A stretch of 64,000 nucleotides of DNA from Caldifarciminota bacterium (lineage in GTDB: Bacteria; Hydrothermota; UBA3073). The notes under the pieces are model-generated. The model did no database searches, was not told the DNA's origin, and saw only the letters and a program-made list of their open reading frames with translations. Shown here in pieces: positions 1,843 to 15,045 of this stretch (within the stretch, counting starts at the first letter, position 1; each line of letters starts with the position of its first letter). The stretch is taken from the NCBI GenBank assembly GCA_023129165.1, contig JAGMCL010000056.1:1-64000 (forward strand), read 5' to 3'. Made by a program: the position numbers and the translations under genes.

Positions 1843-2274
1843 ATGAACAATGAAAAAGAGTTAGCAATGAAAAAACTTAAGGAATATCTCGACAGAAAAA
1901 ATATCCATCCATCATATCATCGTCTGAAGATTTTGAAATATCTAATAAACCATAAAATACATCCAACAGTTGATATGATATACAAAAACCTCTCAAAAGA
2001 AATACCAACTCTATCTAAAACAACCGTTTATAATACCTTAAATCTTTTTCTAAGAAAGGGAATTGTATCAGGTTTAACAATCGATGAAAGTGAAATAAGG
2101 TATGACTATAATACAAAACCACACGTACACTTCAAATGTATTAAGTGCGGCTGCGTGTATGATATACACCTTAAGTGCCCTATATTCGATAAAGAAATTA
2201 TAGAGGGTCATAAAATTACAGAACACCATATATACCTCAAAGGCATTTGTAGTGAGTGCTTAGAAAAAGTATAA
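1843..2274 (+). CDS. Fur-family regulator, PerR-like peroxide sensor
   Basis: A 143-residue Fur-family DNA-binding regulator. An N-terminal winged helix carries the family pattern SKTTVYNTLNLF. The dimerisation half has the structural zinc cysteines (CIKCG and CSEC) and the metal-sensing cluster around RYD, KPHVH and VYDI. Asp rather than Glu in VYDI is the PerR-type choice in the regulatory metal site. The start at 1843 follows GAGGAAAA; an ATG at 1867 is a weaker alternative. Its neighbours are nearly all oxygen or NO defence genes. A PerR-box-like sequence overlaps the promoter just downstream, so repression of hrb-fprA is a reasonable inference. PerR rather than Fur is likely but not proven. 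Confidence 0.85.
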   Translation: MNNEKELAMKKLKEYLDRKNIHPSYHRLKILKYLINHKIHPTVDMIYKNLSKEIPTLSKTTVYNTLNLFLRKGIVSGLTIDESEIRYDYNTKPHVHFKCIKCGCVYDIHLKCPIFDKEIIEGHKITEHHIYLKGICSECLEKV

Positions 2275-2368: not shown

Positions 2369-3070
2369 ATGGATATTACAACCTTTCGTAAGATAAATTA
2401 TGGTTTATATGTTATTAGCTCAAAGATGAATAAGAAAATCAATGGGCAGATAGCTAATACAGTTTTTCAGGTAACATCAAAACCACCAACCGTAGCCATT
2501 AGTATAAACAAAGACAATTATACACATAAGTTGATAAATAAAAGCAGGGTTTTCACTATATCTATTTTATCTGAAGAGACACCAATGCAGTTTATAGGTC
2601 GCTTTGGTTTTAAATGTGGAAGGAACATGAATAAGTTCCAGGATGTAAAATATAAATTGGGTACAACTGGTGCACCTATACTATTGGAATATACCATAGG
2701 TTACTTAGAGTGTGAGGTGATTGATAGTCTGGATGTTGGAACACACACGATTTTTGTAGGTAAGGTTTTGGATGCTGCAATCATAAGTGATAAAAATGCA
2801 ATGACCTATGATTATTACCATAAGGTAAAGAAAGGAAAGACACCGAAATCGGCACCTACATATATAAAAAAAGTAAAGGGGATAGAAAAACAAAAGGAGG
2901 TGGGTAAAATGGCAAGGTATAAATGTAAAGTCTGTGGCTATATATATGACCCTGAAAATGGTGACACTGATTCTGGTATCAAACCCGGAACACCCTTTGA
3001 AGAATTACCCGATGACTGGGTATGTCCTGTTTGCGGTGTAGGAAAAGACCAGTTTGAAAAGGAGGATTGA
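2369..3070 (+). CDS. hrb: Flavin reductase-rubredoxin fusion (high-molecular-weight rubredoxin)
   Basis: A 233-residue fusion. Residues 1 to about 165 form a flavin reductase-like FMN-binding domain; residues about 181-233 form a complete rubredoxin with Fe-binding CKVCGY and CPVCG. Moorella Hrb has the same layout and passes electrons from NADH to flavodiiron protein FprA. The FprA gene follows with 1 bp between stop and start codon, supporting a shared NO/O2-reducing pathway. At residue 181 an internal ATG (2909) has a near-perfect AAAGGAGGTG ribosome site, so a free 53-residue rubredoxin may also be made. It is transcribed from a consensus promoter with a PerR-like operator. Confidence 0.92.
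2894..2911 (+). promoter_or_regulatory. Internal ribosome site and start codon for a free rubredoxin
   Basis: Inside hrb, AAAGGAGGTG is followed after a few bases by the in-frame ATG at 2909, which opens exactly the rubredoxin domain (2909-3070, 53 residues). This is the strongest Shine-Dalgarno of the gene. It suggests a relic of two separate genes, or dual translation. Confidence 0.55.
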
Positions 3071-3071
3071 G

Positions 3072-4253
3072 ATGGCTTCAAGAGAAATACTAACCGGGGT
3101 TTATTCGGTTGGAGCAATAGACTGGGATAGAAGATTGTTTGATGAACTCATACCCCTTCCAGATGGAACAACTTATAATTCTTATCTGATAAAAGGCAGT
3201 GAAAAGACAGCGCTTATAGATACTGTAGATCCTACCAAAGAACATGTTCTCGTAGATAACCTTAAGGAATTAGGCATCAATGATATCGACTATATCGTTT
3301 CCAATCATGCTGAGCAGGACCATTCTGGAACAATACCAAAAATGCTTGAGCTTTTCCCAGAAGCAAGAGTTGTAACCAATCCGAAATGTAAGGGTTTACT
3401 TATAGAGTTTCTTCTAATCCCAGAGAGTAAGTTCATGACTGTAGATGATGGGGAGAACCTGTCTTTAGGAGACAAAACACTGGAGTTCATTTACGCACCC
3501 TGGGTACACTGGCCTGAGACAATGTTAACCTATTTAAAAGAGAAAAATATTTTATTCCCCTGTGACCTTTTTGGTTCTCATCTTGCTACAAGTGAACTCT
3601 ATGCCAGTGATGAAGCAAAGGTCTATGAATCAGCAAAGAGATATTATGCAGAGATAATGATGCCATTCAGAAACAGTATCAAAAGACATCTGGAAAGGAT
3701 AGATAATCTGGATATAGAGATAATAGCACCAAGCCACGGACCGATTCACGATAGACCTGAATTTATCCTTGAGGCTTACAAGGAATGGGTTTCTGAGGAA
3801 GTAAAGAATGAGGTACTCATACCCTATGTATCAATGCATGGAAGTACAGAAAAGATGGTCAGTTATCTTATAGATGCTCTTATGGAACGGGATATAATAG
3901 TAAAACCCTTTAATCTGACAAGAACAGATATTGGTGAGCTGGCAATGGCTCTTGTAGATGTCGCCACTATAGTGATTGCCTCACCTACAGTTTTGGTTGG
4001 TCCCCATCCAAGTGTCGTATATGCTACATATCTTGCAAATGCCCTGGGACCCAAGGTAAAATTTGCATCCATTATTGGTTCATATGGTTGGGGTGGAAAG
4101 ATGCTTGAACAGATTACCGGAATGCTTGGTAATCTCAAAGTGGAGATTATAGAGCCTGTTATTGTAAAGGGTTATCCCAGGGAGGAAGATTTCAGATCCC
4201 TGGATAGGTTGGCAGATGAAATCCTTAAAAAGCATAAAAAAATAATAATTTGA
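3072..4253 (+). CDS. fprA: Flavodiiron protein (FprA-type NO/O2 reductase)
   Basis: A 393-residue cytosolic flavodiiron protein that reduces O2 to water or NO to N2O with electrons from rubredoxin. The metallo-beta-lactamase-like domain has the full diiron ligand set: His79, Glu81, Asp83 and His84 in NHAEQDHSG, His146, Asp165 and His222. From about residue 245 a flavodoxin domain begins with the FMN loop SMHGSTEK. The ATG at 3072 is preferred over an upstream in-frame TTG because AAGGAGG lies at the right distance just before it. It is coupled to hrb. The C-terminus ends after the flavodoxin domain, so this is a class A enzyme without extra domains. Confidence 0.95.
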   Translation: MASREILTGVYSVGAIDWDRRLFDELIPLPDGTTYNSYLIKGSEKTALIDTVDPTKEHVLVDNLKELGINDIDYIVSNHAEQDHSGTIPKMLELFPEARVVTNPKCKGLLIEFLLIPESKFMTVDDGENLSLGDKTLEFIYAPWVHWPETMLTYLKEKNILFPCDLFGSHLATSELYASDEAKVYESAKRYYAEIMMPFRNSIKRHLERIDNLDIEIIAPSHGPIHDRPEFILEAYKEWVSEEVKNEVLIPYVSMHGSTEKMVSYLIDALMERDIIVKPFNLTRTDIGELAMALVDVATIVIASPTVLVGPHPSVVYATYLANALGPKVKFASIIGSYGWGGKMLEQITGMLGNLKVEIIEPVIVKGYPREEDFRSLDRLADEILKKHKKIII

Positions 4254-5664: not shown

Positions 5665-5988
5665 ATGGATAAGAACGAAAAACTGGATATGTTCTGCTAT
5701 CAATGCTCACAGACTGCAAAGGGAACTGGTTGTACTATAAGAGGTGTATGTGGAAAGGAGGCTACAGTAGCACGTTTACAGGATAACCTGTTGCTTACAA
5801 CAAAAGGCTGTAGCTATCCTCTGGAGCCTTTTGGCAATTGGTGTAAAGGGTATTTATTTAGGACCAATACTTCCTGCCCCGCCGATGGCGGGGTGAATGA
5901 CGATATTCTTAAGGTATTAACAGAGAATTATGATTTGCGTCTTATAGGTAATCCGGAAGAAGACATCAAGCGAATGTTGGGTTCGTAA
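5665..5988 (+). CDS. Internally deleted hybrid-cluster protein (mini-Hcp)
   Basis: Residues 9 to about 45 match the N-terminus of Hcp/hydroxylamine reductase, including the four cysteines (11, 14, 23, 29) that bind its iron-sulfur cluster. The last 30 or so residues ([20 protein letters not shown] and on) match the extreme Hcp C-terminus. The roughly 430 residues between, which hold the hybrid cluster, are missing. The frame stays open, and a GC-rich palindrome (5876-5894) sits near the junction. AGGAGG precedes the start. It is either a decaying gene or a small ferredoxin-like product; hydroxylamine reductase activity is not expected. Confidence 0.7.
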
Positions 5989-6068: not shown

Positions 6069-6533
6069 ATGATTAACTTCAAAGCAAGTGAAATATTTCA
6101 GTTCGCTATAAGGATAGAAGAAAATGGCGAAAGGTTTTACCGCAATATGGCTCAAAAGATTGAAAACACAAATATGGAAAGGGTTTTTACCTTTCTTGCA
6201 AATGAAGAGGTTAAACACAAGAAGACATTTGAAAATATGGTGTCAAAGATTGAGAAATATGAACCTCCTGAGAGTTATCCAGGAGAGTATTTTACGTATC
6301 TACGCGCCTATGCAGATAATATCATATTCAGCCAGAGAAAATTAGAAGAGGAGATGTCAAAAATCAAGGGCGCAATCTCTGCAGTTGATTTTGCTATACA
6401 GCGAGAGCTTGATTCTATTCTCTATTTTCTAGAAATGAAGAATTTCATTCCCGAGAGCCAGCGTAATTTAATCGATGGTATAATAGAGGAGGAACGGAGA
6501 CACTTTGTGAAATTATCCGAACTTAAAAAGTAA
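6069..6533 (+). CDS. Rubrerythrin-like ferritin-fold diiron protein
   Basis: A 154-residue four-helix-bundle protein without a rubredoxin domain. Diiron ligands are visible as a Glu in the first helix (RIEENGERFY), ExxH in the second (EEVKHKK), a Glu in the third and EEERRH in the last. Such proteins reduce peroxide or bind iron in anaerobes. The start at 6069 is chosen because GGGGG lies just before it; an upstream in-frame GTG at 6036 lacks a ribosome site. It is one of three ferritin-like genes within 4 kb, beside desulfoferrodoxin. Confidence 0.85.
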   Translation: MINFKASEIFQFAIRIEENGERFYRNMAQKIENTNMERVFTFLANEEVKHKKTFENMVSKIEKYEPPESYPGEYFTYLRAYADNIIFSQRKLEEEMSKIKGAISAVDFAIQRELDSILYFLEMKNFIPESQRNLIDGIIEEERRHFVKLSELKK

Positions 6534-6552: not shown

Positions 6553-6738
6553 GCATTGAACACTTAATAACACTGAATAGTATATCAGACGATCAGAATA
6601 CCTGCCTGCGGTAGGCAGGTCAGTAGGAAGAAAATCAGGACATCAGTATATCAGGTTAGAGATGGTTTACTTCTGATACCCTGATAATCTGATACTCTGC
6701 ATGCTGATCTACTGGTATCCTGATATACTTTGAAAGTT
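6553..6738 (+). repeat. Left copy of an approximately 170-bp inverted repeat
   Basis: This stretch contains CACTGAATAG, the palindrome CCTGCCTGCGGTAGGCAGG, AGTAGGAAGAAAATCAG and many short ATCAG/CTGAT units. It matches the reverse complement of 10434-10608 over nearly its whole length. The pair encloses the dfx-iscS-iscU-rubrerythrin segment. Confidence 0.8.
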
Positions 6739-6821
6739 ACTGACTACAGATTACCAGTAACTATTAGGTGATTTCGGTGTTATTAACGTATAATTTAGCA
6801 CAGTAACTAAGGGGGTATAAG

Positions 6822-7199
6822 ATGACTAAGAAATTGCAGGTCTATAAGTGTGAGATATGTGGAAATATCGTGGAGGTTTTACACACAGGAGTGGGTGAAC
6901 TCGTCTGTTGTGGTCAGCCAATGAAACTCTTGGAAGAGCAGACTGAGGAACAGGGTAAAGAGAAGCATGTGCCAGTGATTGAGAGGATAGATAACAAAAT
7001 AAAAGTGAAAGTTGGTTCTATTCCTCATCCGATGGAAGAAAAACACTATATAGAATGGGTAGAGGTCGTAACAAGGGATGGCATTAGGAGAAAGTTCTTA
7101 AAACCAGGTGATGCACCTGAGATAGAATTTGAACCGATAGAAGAGATAGTTACTGTAAGAGAACATTGCAGCATCCATGGCTTGTGGGTATCGAGATAA
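6822..7199 (+). CDS. dfx: Desulfoferrodoxin (superoxide reductase)
   Basis: A 125-residue two-domain superoxide reductase that converts superoxide to peroxide. The N-terminal desulforedoxin-like Fe(Cys)4 site uses Cys10, Cys13, Cys29 and Cys30. The catalytic centre is complete: His49, His69, His75, His119 and axial Cys116, with Glu47-Lys48 before the first His. A TATAAT-like -10 lies at 6789-6794 and a GGGGG ribosome site before the ATG. It appears to be first in an operon with iscS, iscU, a small membrane protein and a ferritin-like protein (gaps 14-40 bp). The peroxide product would be a substrate for the neighbouring rubrerythrins. Confidence 0.95.
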
Positions 7200-7215
7200 A
7201 AACGGAGGTTTTGAC

Positions 7216-8370
7216 ATGGAGAGGATATATTTAGACCACGCATCGGCAATGCCCATTGATCCGAGGGTATTGGAGTTTGCTGAAAGATATCTTAAAAAAG
7301 ATTTCGGGAATCCTTCATCCCTCTATTCATTTGGATTGGAAGCAAAAAGTGCTATTGAAGAGGCAAGAGGGAAAATTACAGAACTTATTAATGCAGAGAA
7401 GGAGACTTGTATTATCTTCACTTGTGGTGCAACCGAATCGAACAATCTTGCTATCAAAGGAACAGCAATAAGGAACATGGCAAAAGGGAAAAAGGTTGCA
7501 GCAAGTGCCATAGAACATATGTCAGTTCTGAATCCAATGAAAGAGCTTCAAAAAGGCGGCTTCAAGTTGACTATCATACCGGTTGACTCAATGGGTATTG
7601 TCGATATTGATAAACTTGATAGTATCTTGAGCAAAGATACCACAGTAACCTCGATAATGTATGCAAACAACGACATAGGAACAATAGAACCTATAAAGGA
7701 GATAAGTGAAATAGTTCATGAAAAGGGCTTATATTTACATGTGGATGCAACAGCCGCTGCAGGTCGTATACCAATAGATGTTCAAAATGATGGAATAGAT
7801 CTGTTAACACTATCATCTAACGATATGTATGGACCTCAAGGTGCTGGTTCGTTGTATATAAAGCCGGGTATCAGACTACAGTCGATACTGCCGGGTGGTG
7901 GACAAGAACGTGGGCTGAGGTCAGGGACAGAGAACATATTTGCTATTAGTGGAATGGGAGAAGCGGCAAGGATAGCAAAGATTGAAATGTCTCAGGAAAG
8001 CAATCGATTAAAGGTAGTAAGAGATAAACTTGTCACTGAGATATTGAAAATAAACGAATCATATCTCACGGGTCACCCCACAAAACGGCTTCCACACCAT
8101 GCAAGTTTCCGATTTAGTCGTATAGAGGGTGAGAGCATACTTTTAAATATGGATACGCTGTACAATATACAGATATCCACCGGGTCAGCCTGCTATTCAA
8201 GAACATTGGAACCTTCAAATGTTCTATTGGCAATAGGTTTAAAACATGAAGAAGCACATGGTTCAATGGTTATAACTCTTGGACACTCGAACAAGATTGA
8301 ACAAATACCTATAATTACAAAGGCAGTAAAGGAGACGGTTGAAAAGTTGAGGAAACTTTCACCGCTATAA
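7216..8370 (+). CDS. iscS: IscS/NifS-family cysteine desulfurase with Asp replacing the PLP lysine
   Basis: A 384-residue class V aminotransferase-fold protein. It keeps the GATESNN loop, the PLP-stacking His101, Asp177 and the sulfur-carrying Cys326 in STGSACYS. The segment normally SGHK-x-YGPKG reads SSNDMYGPQG: the Schiff-base lysine is Asp203 and its preceding His is Asn. The Gln contacting the PLP oxygen is Ala180. An Asp at the lysine position is also known from Archaeoglobus fulgidus IscS. Either PLP is held without a Schiff base, or the protein is a scaffold partner of IscU. The start at 7216 follows GGAGG. It is 16 bp after dfx and 14 bp before iscU. Confidence 0.9.
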   Translation: MERIYLDHASAMPIDPRVLEFAERYLKKDFGNPSSLYSFGLEAKSAIEEARGKITELINAEKETCIIFTCGATESNNLAIKGTAIRNMAKGKKVAASAIEHMSVLNPMKELQKGGFKLTIIPVDSMGIVDIDKLDSILSKDTTVTSIMYANNDIGTIEPIKEISEIVHEKGLYLHVDATAAAGRIPIDVQNDGIDLLTLSSNDMYGPQGAGSLYIKPGIRLQSILPGGGQERGLRSGTENIFAISGMGEAARIAKIEMSQESNRLKVVRDKLVTEILKINESYLTGHPTKRLPHHASFRFSRIEGESILLNMDTLYNIQISTGSACYSRTLEPSNVLLAIGLKHEEAHGSMVITLGHSNKIEQIPIITKAVKETVEKLRKLSPL

Positions 8371-8384
8371 GAGAGGTGATATAT

Positions 8385-8777
8385 ATGGTACAGATTGGCT
8401 ATAGTAAAAAAGTAATGGAACATTTTATGAATCCGAGGAACGTGGGTACAATAGAAAATCCTGACGGGTATGGAAAGGTAGGAAATCCTGTTTGTGGAGA
8501 CCTCATGGAGATGTATATAAAGGTAAAAGATGATATAATCATAGATATAAAGTTTAAAACATTCGGCTGCGGTTCTGCAATTGCAACGAGCAGCATGGTG
8601 ACTGAGATGGTGAAGGGGATGCATATCGGCGACGCTTTGAAGATAACACGTGATGATGTGGCTGAAGAGCTTGATGGTCTGCCACCACGGAAGATGCATT
8701 GTTCAAATCTGGCAGCAGATGCACTTCACGAGTCAATTAAAGATTATAAAAGAAAGAGGAAAAAGCAGTCTCCATAG
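8385..8777 (+). CDS. iscU: IscU iron-sulfur cluster assembly scaffold
   Basis: A 130-residue scaffold on which [2Fe-2S] clusters are built with sulfur from IscS. All three ligand cysteines are present (Cys37 in NPVCGD, Cys62 in FGCGSA, Cys106 in MHCSN), with Asp39 and His105. The LPPRKMH segment replaces the LPPVKxHC chaperone-binding motif with little change. The ATG at 8385 fits GAGAGG better than the upstream in-frame GTG at 8376. It is paired with an IscS lacking the PLP lysine, so the in vivo sulfur source is an open question. Confidence 0.93.
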   Translation: MVQIGYSKKVMEHFMNPRNVGTIENPDGYGKVGNPVCGDLMEMYIKVKDDIIIDIKFKTFGCGSAIATSSMVTEMVKGMHIGDALKITRDDVAEELDGLPPRKMHCSNLAADALHESIKDYKRKRKKQSP

Positions 8778-8817: not shown

Positions 8818-9132
8818 GTGAATTATAACAATCATAAAGAGATTGCAAATAAGGAGTTTGAAATAGAGGGGATAGAAAATTTGGGAAAAGCTGGAACAAT
8901 CATAATAGATAGACTAAAGGAGGTGAATCAAAATAGAGCAAAACTCATTGAGCAGAAAAAACTCATGGATAAAGTTGCGGACGAGAAAGAACTGACGGGA
9001 GAAGATTATAGCTTGATAGGTGACATTCTCTGCAGTCTGAGGTCGAGGAAAGAGAGAATAAATTATCTTTTTATATTTGGATTATCGGCTGTAGCCTTAC
9101 TTCTGGCTATATATTTTGATTTTTTAAGGTGA
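8818..9132 (+). CDS. Small membrane-anchored protein of unknown function
   Basis: A 104-residue protein with a charged, helical, probably coiled N-terminal 80 residues and one C-terminal transmembrane helix (about 83-102, YLFIFGLSAVALLLAIYF). I do not recognise the family. The GTG start lacks a strong ribosome site, so the true start may be further in. It lies between iscU and a ferritin-like gene in an otherwise compact operon, with 40- and 30-bp gaps, which supports it being real. The tail-anchored layout would place the helical domain in the cytosol. Confidence 0.5.
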   Translation: MNYNNHKEIANKEFEIEGIENLGKAGTIIIDRLKEVNQNRAKLIEQKKLMDKVADEKELTGEDYSLIGDILCSLRSRKERINYLFIFGLSAVALLLAIYFDFLR

Positions 9133-9162
9133 AAGATGGCACCTTGTAGCGAAGGAGATATT

Positions 9163-9657
9163 ATGAATATAGAAATATATAACCTTGAGGATTTAATACT
9201 AACTGCAATTATGAGTGAAATAGAAAGCAAGAATGTTTATTCAAAAATCGCCAATACTGTGAAAAATTTTATGTTAAAGGATAGATTTCGATTTCTTGCA
9301 GGAGAGGAGGAAAAACACAGGAAATTTTTTGAATGGATGTTTAAGAAGAACTTTCCCGATAAAAAGATTGTGCTGCCAGAGAAGACTCCTGTTCCCTTAC
9401 CGGAAATAAAGATAGACACAGAGAATTTACCCTTGAGTGATATTATGGAAAGTGCAATGCAGGCTGAATGGGCAGCACATAATTATTATAATCGTATTGC
9501 TGCTAAATTTGACAAGAAACCTGAAGTAAAAAATATGCTTCTCTACATTGCATCGATGGAGATGAGTCATTACAGGATACTTGAGGTTGAGAGAGAAAAT
9601 GCCTTGAGGTTTGAGGATTTTGACGCTGAATGGCCCATGATGCATGTTGGACCATAA
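9163..9657 (+). CDS. Ferritin-like diiron protein (rubrerythrin family, no rubredoxin domain)
   Basis: A 164-residue four-helix-bundle protein. The ligand pattern is Glu in helix 1 (SEIESKN), EEEKH in helix 2, Glu in helix 3 (QAEWAAHNYY) and EMSHYR in helix 4. A proline-rich linker separates the two helix pairs. It probably acts in peroxide reduction or iron handling. The ATG at 9163 is chosen because AAGGAG lies 5 bp upstream; the in-frame ATG at 9136 lacks this. It closes the dfx-iscS-iscU gene run. Confidence 0.82.
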   Translation: MNIEIYNLEDLILTAIMSEIESKNVYSKIANTVKNFMLKDRFRFLAGEEEKHRKFFEWMFKKNFPDKKIVLPEKTPVPLPEIKIDTENLPLSDIMESAMQAEWAAHNYYNRIAAKFDKKPEVKNMLLYIASMEMSHYRILEVERENALRFEDFDAEWPMMHVGP

Positions 9658-9791: not shown

Positions 9792-10367
9792 ATGATAAGT
9801 TTGAAAGGAACAAAAACAGAGAGGAATCTACTCACAGCCTTTGCCGGTGAATCACAAGCAAGAAACCGATATACCTACTTTGCATCACAGGCAAAGAAAG
9901 AGGGTTGTGAGCAGATAGCAGGAGTATTTCTTGAGACAGCTGATAATGAAAAGGAGCATGCAAAGAGGCTTTTTAAATTCCTTGAAGGTGGTGAGGTGGA
10001 GATATCCGCTTCATTTCCTGCCGGTATAATCGGTGAGACAAAAGATAATCTCAAGTCAGCGGCTGCTGGGGAGAATTACGAGCATACAAAGATGTATCCA
10101 GGGTTTGCTAAGATTGCAGAGGAAGAAGGTTTTTTGGAGATAGCAGCAGTGTTCAGGGCGATAGCAGTAGCAGAGAAACAGCACGAGAAACGATATCTTG
10201 TTTTGCTTGAAAACCTTGAGAAGGATAGGGTTTTCAAACGAGAAAAAGTTGTAAGGTGGAGATGCAGGAATTGCGGGTATATACATGAGGGAACTGAAGC
10301 ACCAGAGAAATGCCCTGCCTGTGCACATCCAAAGGCATATTTCGAGCTGTTAGGAGAGAATTATTAA
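9792..10367 (+). CDS. rbr: Rubrerythrin
   Basis: A 191-residue classical rubrerythrin, an NADH-dependent peroxidase of anaerobes. The ferritin-like diiron domain (about 1-145) has Glu in [11 protein letters not shown], ExxH in DNEKEH, a Glu in ENYEHT and EKQHEK. The C-terminal rubredoxin domain (about 150-191) has CRNCGY and CPAC. Start and AAGGGGG ribosome site are clear. A 134-bp gap separates it from the preceding gene, so it may have its own promoter, which I could not place. It would receive electrons from rubredoxin or Hrb and remove the peroxide made by desulfoferrodoxin. Confidence 0.95.
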
Positions 10368-10433: not shown

Positions 10434-10608
10434 TTTCAAAGCATATCAGGGTACCAGTGGAGCAGTATGCAGAATATCAGATTATCAGAGTATCAGGTGT
10501 AAACTGTCCCTAATCTGATGTGCTGGTACTCTGATTTTCTTCCTACTGACCTGCCTGCCGCAGGCAGGTATTCTGATCATCTGATACACTATTCAATGTT
10601 ATTCAGTA
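10434..10608 (-). repeat. Right copy of the approximately 170-bp inverted repeat
   Basis: The reverse complement of this stretch aligns with 6553-6738 in the same order: ATTGAATAG, CCTGCCTGCGGCAGGCAGG, AGTAGGAAGAAAATCAG, GATAATCTGAT and CTTTGAAA. It separates rubrerythrin from yhcC. Confidence 0.8.
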
Positions 10609-10628: not shown

Positions 10629-11555
10629 ATGGTGAAGCTCTCTCATCACTTTGGTAGTAAACGATATTATCCGTTTAGCCAATTCTTAAGGGGGAGATTT
10701 GGTTACAGGGTTTATAAATTACCTGTAGATGCAGGTTTTACCTGCCCAAATAGAGATGGCAAAGTTGGCTATGGAGGATGTACCTATTGTTATAACCCCA
10801 GTTTTAGCCCACCCACCTTGAGGGAAGAAGTAAGTATCCTTGACCAGATACAGCTTGGAAAGAGGAAAAAGGGCGGAAAATTTCTGGTCTATTTCCAGCC
10901 ATTTACAAATACCTATGCAGATGTAGATACATTAAAAAGGTTATATGATGAAGCATTACAGGATGATGAAACAGTTGGTCTTTGCATAGGAACAAGACCT
11001 GATTGTATATCGGATGAAATTCTTTTGCTTATTGAGTCTTATGCAAAGAACTACCACGTATGGATTGAGTATGGTCTACAATCTGCCCACGACAAAACCC
11101 TTCGTCTTATAAATCGCTGTCATAGTTTTTCTCAGTTTGAGGATGCGGTTTATAGAACCCAGAATAGGAACATATTTATCTGTACTCATATAATTCTTGG
11201 TCTTCCTGGTGAGACGAGAGAAGATATGCTTGAAACTGCAAGTATATTATCACATCTGCCGATAGACGGAATCAAGATTCATCACTTACAGGTCATAGAA
11301 AATACAAAGATGGCTAAAGATTTCAAGAAGGGGAAATTTAATACACTTTCGTTTGATGAGTACCAATCTCTTGTAGTAGATGTACTTGAATTACTGCCTC
11401 AGAATATGGTTATTCAGCGGCTGATGGGTGATGTCCTGGACGAAAAAATACTCATATCTCCAAGGTGGAATCTTAAAAAACACGAGGTCTTAAACCTTAT
11501 TGACAAGGAACTTATCAGGAGAGATACATATCAGGGAGCAATGTATGAAGATTGA
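10629..11555 (+). CDS. yhcC: TIGR01212-type radical SAM protein (YhcC)
   Basis: A 308-residue radical SAM enzyme with the cluster-binding cysteines CPNRDG...CTYC near residues 39-55, the YhcC arrangement. FQPFTNTYA, the GTRPDC segment and GLPGET are conserved elements of this Elp3-like subfamily. The reaction is not established. Its 3' end overlaps the next start by 11 bp, coupling it to a second IscU-like scaffold. The link may supply its iron-sulfur cluster, which is inference. Confidence 0.88.
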   Translation: MVKLSHHFGSKRYYPFSQFLRGRFGYRVYKLPVDAGFTCPNRDGKVGYGGCTYCYNPSFSPPTLREEVSILDQIQLGKRKKGGKFLVYFQPFTNTYADVDTLKRLYDEALQDDETVGLCIGTRPDCISDEILLLIESYAKNYHVWIEYGLQSAHDKTLRLINRCHSFSQFEDAVYRTQNRNIFICTHIILGLPGETREDMLETASILSHLPIDGIKIHHLQVIENTKMAKDFKKGKFNTLSFDEYQSLVVDVLELLPQNMVIQRLMGDVLDEKILISPRWNLKKHEVLNLIDKELIRRDTYQGAMYED

Positions 11556-11964
11556 TGAAGAAAAATTAACTGCGTTTCTCTATGGTACAAACCTGAAAGA
11601 ATTGAAGAAAATTTACTCTCGAGTTGTAATAGACCATCTTATAAATCCGGAACACTGGGGAATCCTTGGTGATGCAAATAGTTCTGTTAAATTAACAGGT
11701 CCCTGTGGTGATACAATGTATATTTCAATAAAAGTCAGAGATGAAAGAATAACCCGATGTACGTTTGATACCGATGGTTGTATAGCAAGTGTTGTATGTG
11801 GGGATATAGTATCTGAGCTTATAGAGGGTAGTGATATAAAAGAGGCTATGGAGATCAATCAGGATACAATCATAAAGTTCTGTAGTGGATTGCCTGAAGA
11901 AGATAAGCATTGTGTACTACTTGCATCAGATACCCTTAAAAAGGCGATAAAGAAGTTAACTTAA
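11545..11964 (+). CDS. Second IscU/NifU-like iron-sulfur scaffold
   Basis: A 139-residue IscU-fold protein with the three scaffold cysteines: TGPCGD, DGC and KHC. It differs from the iscU at 8385 in having an extra Cys two helical turns after the second ligand (SVVCGD) and a longer N-terminus. The ATG at 11545 follows GGGAG and lies inside the end of yhcC; longer in-frame starts would overlap that gene further. It has no IscS next to it. It may serve the radical SAM enzyme or act as a specialised scaffold. Confidence 0.85.
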   Translation: MKIDEEKLTAFLYGTNLKELKKIYSRVVIDHLINPEHWGILGDANSSVKLTGPCGDTMYISIKVRDERITRCTFDTDGCIASVVCGDIVSELIEGSDIKEAMEINQDTIIKFCSGLPEEDKHCVLLASDTLKKAIKKLT

Positions 11965-13521: not shown

Positions 13522-13620
13522 ATAGAAACTAAAATTAACTATCAAACTCTTATATTCATTTCTTGGAATTTATAATTATATTTCGTATTAGTGCTGAAAA
13601 TAGCACTTTGGAGAAATAGA

Positions 13621-14241
13621 ATGCAGTACTTAGAATTAAAAGAGGCTTTAAAAGACTTTACAGTTTTTTCTCTTACTGATATTCAAAGAATTGAAAGTGA
13701 TTTCTATAGGAGAAGGCTAAATGAATGGCAGGATAAAGGCTATATAAAGAAGATTATCAAAGGTTATTACATCTTTTCTGATTTAAAACTTAATGAGAAT
13801 GTAATTTTTGAAATTGCAAATAGAATATATAGTCCCTCTTATATCTCCTTTGAAATGGCGCTCTCTTATTATCATTTGATTCCTGAAAGTGTATATGGTA
13901 TGACCTCTGCTTCAACCCGTCGAACTTATAACTTTAAAACTCCTATAGCGAAATTTACATATCGAACAATAAAACCTGATTTCTTTTTTGGCTATGACCT
14001 TATTAAGTATAACAATAAATACTTTAAGATAGCTACTATGGAGAAGGCAATATTGGACTATTTTTATCTAAATCCGAAGATAGAAAAAGAGTCAGATTTT
14101 GTTAGTTTACGGATTAATGAGGATTTATTTTTAAAACAGATAGATAAAGAGAAATTTTATAAATTTATAAACAAGTTTGAAAAGAAAACATTAAACAAAA
14201 GAATAAATTCTTTTCTGGAATTCTTATCTGCTGATTCATAA
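13621..14241 (+). CDS. AbiEi-type antitoxin (type IV toxin-antitoxin)
   Basis: A 206-residue protein with an N-terminal winged-helix-like segment (about 1-60, ending KGYYIFSD) and a C-terminal domain with SYISFEMALSYYHLIPE and MEKAILDYFYL, the AbiEi signature regions. AbiEi proteins repress their own operon and neutralise the nucleotidyltransferase toxin. The ATG at 13621 with GGAGA upstream is preferred over the in-frame GTG at 13591, which lies in an inverted repeat. The AbiEii partner follows after 27 bp, and a strong consensus promoter lies upstream. Confidence 0.85.
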   Translation: MQYLELKEALKDFTVFSLTDIQRIESDFYRRRLNEWQDKGYIKKIIKGYYIFSDLKLNENVIFEIANRIYSPSYISFEMALSYYHLIPESVYGMTSASTRRTYNFKTPIAKFTYRTIKPDFFFGYDLIKYNNKYFKIATMEKAILDYFYLNPKIEKESDFVSLRINEDLFLKQIDKEKFYKFINKFEKKTLNKRINSFLEFLSADS

Positions 14242-14268
14242 GAATCCTGTGAATAGAGAGGTTAAAAA

Positions 14269-15045
14269 ATGTTTGATATAAAACAAATAGAATCTTTTTA
14301 TCCAGAGTATTTAAGAGCTTTTAAGAAAAATCTTCTCCGTGAGTATATACAGTATAAAATACTCGAAATAATATATGATTCAAAGTTTGGGGAAAAGCTA
14401 TCTTTTATGGGTGGAACAGCCATCCGAGTTATACATTCACACACAAGGTTTTCAGAAGATTTAGATTTTGATAATTTAGGTTTGAATAAAGAAGACTTTA
14501 AGCAGTTGGTTGAGTTAATACAAAGGAAATTGAAGTTGGAAGGCTATACAGCAGAAATTAAAAATGTTTTTAAAGGTGCATACAGGAGTTACATAAGAAT
14601 TATTGATGTGCTTTTTGAATACGGACTATCCGGGCATAAAGAAGAAAAGTTATTAATACAATTTGATACTGAACCTCAGGAGTTTGAATATGAACCTGGA
14701 AAGGTAATCATCAATAAATTTGATGTATTTATACGGATAAATGTTGTGCCACTTGATATATTACTGGCTCAGAAAATATATGCTATTTTTAAACGTAGGC
14801 GTGCAATGGGCAGGGACTTCTACGATGCTGTCTTTCTTTTTGGCAAGACAAAACCAAACTTTGACTATCTGAAGTTAAAATTAAAAATCAAGAATATGGA
14901 TTATTTAAAGGCCAGACTTTTGTCGAAATGCGAGAGTTTAGATTTTAAACGCTTAGCAAAAGAAACTGAACCGTTTCTATTTACTCCCGGTGATTCAAAA
15001 AAGGTATTATATTTTTGTGATTACATAAAGGATATTAAACCTTGA
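14269..15045 (+). CDS. AbiEii-type nucleotidyltransferase toxin
   Basis: A 258-residue DUF1814/AbiEii nucleotidyltransferase. Motif I is GGTAIR followed by the two metal-binding aspartates in FSEDLDFD. Motifs III and IV appear as the conserved Lys in LLAQKIYA and GRDFYD. These toxins modify tRNA or another target with nucleotides until the AbiEi partner intervenes. All catalytic residues are present, so it is probably active. The spacer before it contains a piece (ATTCATAAGAATCCTGTGAA) of the island repeat found ahead of other genes here. Confidence 0.88.
   Translation: MFDIKQIESFYPEYLRAFKKNLLREYIQYKILEIIYDSKFGEKLSFMGGTAIRVIHSHTRFSEDLDFDNLGLNKEDFKQLVELIQRKLKLEGYTAEIKNVFKGAYRSYIRIIDVLFEYGLSGHKEEKLLIQFDTEPQEFEYEPGKVIINKFDVFIRINVVPLDILLAQKIYAIFKRRRAMGRDFYDAVFLFGKTKPNFDYLKLKLKIKNMDYLKARLLSKCESLDFKRLAKETEPFLFTPGDSKKVLYFCDYIKDIKP

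Follow-up and report, generated by a model that had tools for sequence, protein, structure and literature searches.

A lysine-less IscS homologue encoded between superoxide reductase and IscU genes, and its Asp-type relatives in bacteria and archaea

We analysed a 64,000-nucleotide stretch (hereafter, the window) of a Caldifarciminota bacterium genome (GCA_023129165.1, contig JAGMCL010000056.1, positions 1–64,000 of the forward strand). Within it, an iscS homologue follows dfx, the gene for the superoxide reductase desulfoferrodoxin, after 16 nt and precedes the scaffold gene iscU by 14 nt (Table 1), the arrangement that a preceding, sequence-only reading of this DNA had described as an operon. 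The iscS ORF, running from an ATG at 7216 to the end of its stop codon at 8370, is real, and its product belongs to the aminotransferase class V family (PF00266; 238.6 bits, cut-off 21.5), while scoring below the cut-offs of the NCBIfam equivalog models for NifS (419.9 versus 530.75 bits) and IscS (387.5 versus 643.2 bits). The three genes are probably co-transcribed; matches to promoters and terminators over the dfx-iscS-iscU stretch did not rise above those in shuffled sequence.

The trio forms part of an oxygen-defence island. A search upstream of dfx found no PerR or Fur box; the best PerR-like sites, each with two mismatches (at 2311, 8823 and 9477), carry little meaning in this AT-rich sequence. 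Alignment of the upstream region with those of two related genomes (G001 and G002) revealed no clear conserved palindrome, G002 being too divergent. The intergenic region before dfx (6560-6760) contains imperfect CTGATA/CTGATAC repeats, which recur near 10450-10500. The hybrid cluster protein N-terminal domain encoded upstream has similar matches in the corresponding island of relatives. Further along (13591-15045), a 216-aa ORF without a family match is followed by a gene for an AbiEii-type nucleotidyltransferase, and the two look like a type IV toxin-antitoxin pair.

Table 1 Features of the dfx-iscS-iscU locus and its surroundings, in window coordinates.
Feature	Position	Strand	Evidence or remark
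Glutaredoxin	start 1554	+	same island
Fur/PerR-family regulator	1843..2274	+	PF01475; same island
Flavin reductase-rubredoxin fusion	2369..3070	+	PF01613, PF00301
FprA-like flavo-diiron oxidase	3117..4253	+	PF19583 ODP
ArsP-like permease	start 4267	+	same island
Hybrid cluster protein N-terminal domain, stand-alone	5665-5988	+	107 aa; Cys motif present
Rubrerythrin-family protein, upstream of dfx	6069..6533	+	PF02915, 45.8 bits
dfx, desulfoferrodoxin (superoxide reductase), directly upstream of iscS	6822..7199	+	TIGR00320, 195.8 bits (cut-off 146.9); PF06397, PF01880
iscS ribosome-binding site, GGAGG	7204..7208	+	sequence
Asp-type (lysine-less) IscS homologue	7216..8370	+	384 aa; PF00266; best PDB matches 4eb5, 4r5f
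Ala180 codon (E. coli Gln183)	7753..7755	+	alignment
Asn202 and Asp203 codons (E. coli His205 and PLP Lys206)	7819..7824	+	alignment
Cys326 codon, retained loop Cys (E. coli Cys328; A. fulgidus Cys321)	8191..8193	+	alignment
Val352 codon, substituting E. coli Arg354 (substrate side)	8269..8271	+	alignment
iscU scaffold (NifU_clost TIGR03419 type)	8385..8777	+	profile matches; three Cys and Asp ligand all present
Small ORF	8818..9132	+	104 aa; no family match; also in G002 (L038)
Rubrerythrin-family protein	9136..9657	+	PF02915, 63.7 bits
Rubrerythrin with rubredoxin-like domain	9792..10367	+	NF045767, over cut-off
Second, divergent IscU-like protein	11545-11964	+	Cys and Asp ligands retained; also in G001

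The substitutions were read from an alignment of the window IscS with E. coli IscS and Archaeoglobus fulgidus IscS2. The lysine that forms the Schiff base with PLP in cysteine desulfurases (EC 2.8.1.7) is replaced by Asp203 (GAT, 7822-7824) and the preceding histidine by asparagine, within an SSND motif spanning residues 200-203, and the glutamine at the PLP oxygen contact has become alanine; on these points, as on retention of the catalytic loop cysteine, the alignment agrees with the sequence-only reading. A third loss had escaped that reading: the arginine that grips the substrate carboxylate in IscS-type enzymes is a valine. Much of the remaining pocket is retained, including His101 (E. 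coli H104), Asp177 (D180) and Ser200 (S203), together with Thr73 (Thr76) and Thr238 (Thr243) of the PLP cup. The window IscU in turn possesses the full ligand set of three cysteines and an aspartate (C37, D39, C63 and C106), as do the IscU partners of relatives.

An AlphaFold2 model of the window IscS (mean pLDDT 85.4, falling below 50 in the Cys loop, residues 325-332) matched IscS structures with TM-scores of about 0.9, and a fold search with this model ranked 4r5f, 4hvk, 4eb5 and 4eb7 first. By sequence, too, A. fulgidus IscS2 (4eb5) and its D199K variant (4r5f) come nearest among solved structures, at 51% identity. The parallel to Archaeoglobus drawn previously from the Asp alone holds for both sequence and fold. 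The two proteins have in common the SSND motif, the Gln-to-Ala exchange, the loss of the arginine (to leucine in IscS2, to Val352 here), the loop cysteine and an IscU partner (IscS2 structures 4EB5, 4EB7 and 4HVK; D199K, 4R5F). They differ in that IscS2 is archaeal, whereas the window IscS comes from a bacterium whose genome also encodes a Lys-type paralogue, and lies behind dfx in an oxygen-defence island. With E. coli IscS, NifS and human NFS1 it shares fold type I, the loop cysteine and an IscU partner, but Lys206, His205, Gln183 and Arg354 of the E. coli enzyme are all replaced.

IscS proteins of this kind are already known from Archaeoglobus and Methanosarcina. According to PMC7585200, the exchange of Lys for Asp leaves A. 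fulgidus IscS without desulfurase activity, and the protein donates a cysteine ligand to the [2Fe-2S] cluster in IscU; Methanosarcina acetivorans IscS1, encoded with IscU1, likewise lacks the catalytic lysine, was insoluble on expression and was proposed to work like its A. fulgidus counterpart. In the complex with IscU D35A, as described in PMC9769115, the cluster is ligated by three IscU cysteines and Cys321 of IscS. A figure legend in the same paper indicates that PLP is drawn in the A. fulgidus complex 4EB5, so loss of the lysine need not entail loss of PLP binding.

To what extent are these residues shared? Nine close relatives within the WOR-3 phylum (L008-L016; 70-96% identity) all carry the motif, and the same residues occur in every Asp-type row aligned; their identity across independent genomes rules out a sequencing or assembly error as the source of Asp203 and answers the check on relatives proposed in the sequence-only reading. 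The exact DNA pattern occurred in 14 of 147 genomes of the phylum, a count from which some known carriers are missing. Scanning GTDB species genomes returned at least 118 Asp-type loci; judged by record titles, 82 of the matches listed are archaeal and 35 bacterial, and the taxa among them include Bathyarchaeota, Methanobacteriota, Thermoplasmatota, Promethearchaeota, Rokubacteria, Thermodesulfobacteriota and Myxococcota. Chance hits of a degenerate pattern were ruled out, all 80 loci checked encoding an IscS homologue. The sequence-only reading had the residues right but treated the protein as a local oddity; it belongs to a large family that spans both domains.

Conservation was assessed in 104 Asp-type rows of less than 90% identity, drawn from the matches listed. 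Since SSND served as the search key for most relatives, the invariance of Asn-Asp is circular and is not counted as evidence; no such selection applied to the missing Gln and Arg or to the conserved Cys, His and Asp, and the two losses do count. Among these rows, equivalents of Cys326, His101 and Asp177 are present in 104/104, while none has Gln at position 180 or Arg at position 352. Lys-type rows, in contrast, have Lys and His in 49/49, Gln in 48/49 and Arg in 48/48 cases. Comparison of the window iscS with three relatives gave dN/dS values of 0.12, 0.17 and 0.10, indicative of purifying selection and ruling out a decayed pseudogene.

In an unrooted tree of 64 rows, computed with the trait columns removed, a branch starred at 98 has all Lys-type rows on one side and the Asp-type rows with one Gln-Asp row on the other, the window IscS grouping with IscS2 on the latter side. 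Constraining the Asp-type rows to a single group gave a tree of higher likelihood, which was not rejected (p-AU 0.743). The near universality of lysine in this fold suggests that it is the ancestral state. The window protein falls in a starred 25-row clade comprising WOR-3 bacteria, Aminicenantes, Desulfobacterales, Myxococcota, Methanosarcinales, Methanothrix and Thermoplasmata, its nearest row there being archaeal (L154; 85% identity). This mixture of bacteria and archaea points to transfer between domains; mis-binning is unlikely as a general cause, because one member lies on a 1.8 Mb archaeal record (L107) and another on a 2.5 Mb bacterial one (L085).

Gene neighbourhoods set the close Asp-type relatives apart. 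Where at least 5 kb was in view, oxygen-defence genes (dfx, rubrerythrin, FprA or flavin reductase) lay within 4 kb of 20 of 26 close Asp-type loci (dfx in 15), as compared to 12 of 70 other Asp-type and 0 of 21 Lys-type loci. An iscU gene directly downstream was found for 25/28, 53/83 and 5/22 loci, respectively. Fisher tests of close Asp-type against Lys-type loci gave p-values of about 2e-6 (IscU) and 2e-8 (oxygen defence), values that overstate the strength of the association because the loci are not independent, the close group including near relatives and counting one locus twice (L038, L084).

The window genome also encodes a canonical Lys-type IscS (G000:C71:13915-15054; SGHKLYGPKG) with Gln and Arg retained, whose neighbours include a MerR-like gene but no iscU. 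A second IscU, on contig C24, has no adjoining iscS, and there is one SufB-type protein. The only IscS adjoining an IscU in this genome is hence the one predicted to be inactive. Across the 50 genomes carrying an Asp-type IscS, 19 contained the exact Lys-type motif, and protein searches with motif reading identified Lys-type proteins in many of the remaining 31. The Asp-type protein was the only strong IscS match in 16 (G155, G156, G160, G163, G164, G166, G171, G173, G175, G176, G183, G186, G188, G189, G192 and G194), an absence of the Lys-type that is provisional because these are draft genomes; five of them (G156, G163, G175, G176 and G183) had no other IscS match above 35 bits.

Taken together, we consider it fairly probable that the window IscS is a dedicated partner of IscU, devoid of desulfurase activity of its own, that serves Fe-S cluster assembly or repair under oxygen stress. 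It would be a catalytically retired desulfurase homologue that keeps the fold, the mobile Cys326 loop and most of the PLP pocket; having lost the Lys for the Schiff base, the Gln that contacts PLP O3' and the Arg facing the substrate carboxylate, it is expected to be unable to liberate sulfur from cysteine. That it is no normal PLP desulfurase, as the sequence-only reading had it, is thus suggested by three lost residues and by analogy to the published A. fulgidus protein. Docked to IscU, it would offer Cys326 as fourth ligand during [2Fe-2S] formation, as published for IscS2, and the window pair has the parts needed for such action in Cys326 and the IscU Cys/Asp set. Sulfur may be delivered from another source, as sulfide or persulfide, for instance by the Lys-type IscS on C71; a PLP-independent route or another donor, as put forward earlier, is plausible. 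We infer the inactivity, the cysteine ligation in this species and the sulfur source from these comparisons. The dfx/rubrerythrin/FprA island suggests that clusters would be supplied or repaired under oxygen or superoxide stress, a plausible role deduced from synteny, for which linkage to dfx is not proof. Against the proposed IscU partnership, the Lys-type IscS could feed any IscU, Asp-type groups in Rokubacteria and some Thermoplasmata have no adjoining iscU, and the pocket may still bind PLP, judging by the 4EB5 legend in PMC9769115.

Cys326 could instead act as a carrier in a persulfide relay, loaded with sulfane sulfur by the Lys-type IscS, by a rhodanese or by polysulfide and passing it on to IscU without ligating the cluster. 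The universal loop cysteine among the matches listed (104/104 non-redundant members) and the Lys-type IscS of this and many other genomes fit such a relay, but at least 16 of the 50 draft genomes have no second strong IscS and Cys321 is a cluster ligand in the A. fulgidus structure (PMC9769115), and we regard the relay as unlikely. Less probable again is a regulatory pseudoenzyme that binds IscU and holds or releases clusters in response to superoxide: the island does include a Fur-family regulator gene, yet many archaeal Asp-type members reside in plain iscSU pairs, oxygen-defence genes accompanying just the 12 of 70 other loci noted above. An enzyme that binds PLP non-covalently and acts on cysteine or some other substrate, with Asp203 or a different residue as its base, would make sense of the largely retained PLP cup (His101, Asp177, Thr73, Ser200 and Thr238) and of the PLP drawn in 4EB5 (PMC9769115, legend); it is quite improbable given that the Gln183 and Arg354 equivalents are gone from every one of the 104 rows among the matches listed and that A. 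fulgidus IscS is reported inactive in PMC7585200. Finally, the sequence-only reading had named a canonical iscS elsewhere, with this copy unexpressed or recently decayed, as the finding that would count against it: the canonical copy exists (C71), but a decaying duplicate is refuted by dN/dS of 0.10-0.17, by the absence of frameshifts and by the recurrence of these residues in different phyla and in both domains, and is extremely improbable.

Extending the favoured reading of an IscU partner without desulfurase activity to the whole family is more tentative. Asp-type IscS-IscU might constitute a widespread Fe-S module that receives its sulfur as sulfide or from a distinct donor; one branch of it would be a mobile oxygen-stress repair unit that moves between anaerobic archaea and bacteria together with genes for superoxide reductase, rubrerythrin and flavo-diiron oxidase. 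We rate this as possible, somewhat short of even. If an IscS unable to draw sulfur from cysteine can serve IscU, then ligating the cluster or docking IscU would be functions distinct from the enzyme activity of IscS, and many anaerobes may assemble Fe-S clusters from sulfide. Natural lines with repeated Lys loss would offer ready-made tests of this distinction, and the linkage to superoxide reductase names oxygen stress as the condition in which to look for a phenotype.

A two-gene IscS-IscU unit without ISC chaperones has been described as MIS (MisS-MisU; Garcia et al. 2022, as covered in PMC12442378). The window pair resembles it, ORFs and families between 5665 and 11964 including no HscA, HscB, IscA or Fdx; MisS, however, is described there as a homologue of the active kind of cysteine desulfurase, whereas the window IscS, without the lysine, is predicted from its sequence to be inactive. 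As far as the searched literature shows, the bacterial members, the triple-loss signature, the size of the family and its cross-domain spread are new, as is the tie of one subclade to oxygen-defence genes. Searches for dfx and rubrerythrin together with iscSU yielded nothing relevant in that literature, which leaves out most subscription papers.

Lysine-less IscS proteins of other kinds also came to light. In Rokubacteria, a full iscR-iscS-iscU-iscA-hscB-hscA-fdx cluster (L249:5653-6882 and L250:13198-14436) encodes an IscS with Leu or Met at the PLP lysine (TAHL/TAHM) and Gln for His104, Gln183 and Arg being retained; roughly 5 kb on, a Lys-type IscS is encoded with an IscU-like gene, and there is an Asp-type IscS elsewhere. 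The tree places the TAHL/TAHM protein next to E. coli IscS, a separate loss of the lysine. A second group, from the window's own phylum, has Gln-Ser or His-Thr at the His-Lys site (SAQS in L018, L019, L029 and L030; SSHT or SAHT in L020, L023 and L028), with Gln and Arg lost and Cys retained, and looks like an independent loss because it is nested among Lys-type rows. In Desulfobacterales, a further lysine-less IscS (ASNP; G180, L262:3947-5152) adjoins an IscU. Related WOR-3 genomes split at this very position, with TAHL in G025 (L254:4309-5604), TAHK in G036 (L255:3949-5133) and an IscU beside both, possibly reflecting a recent loss of the lysine.
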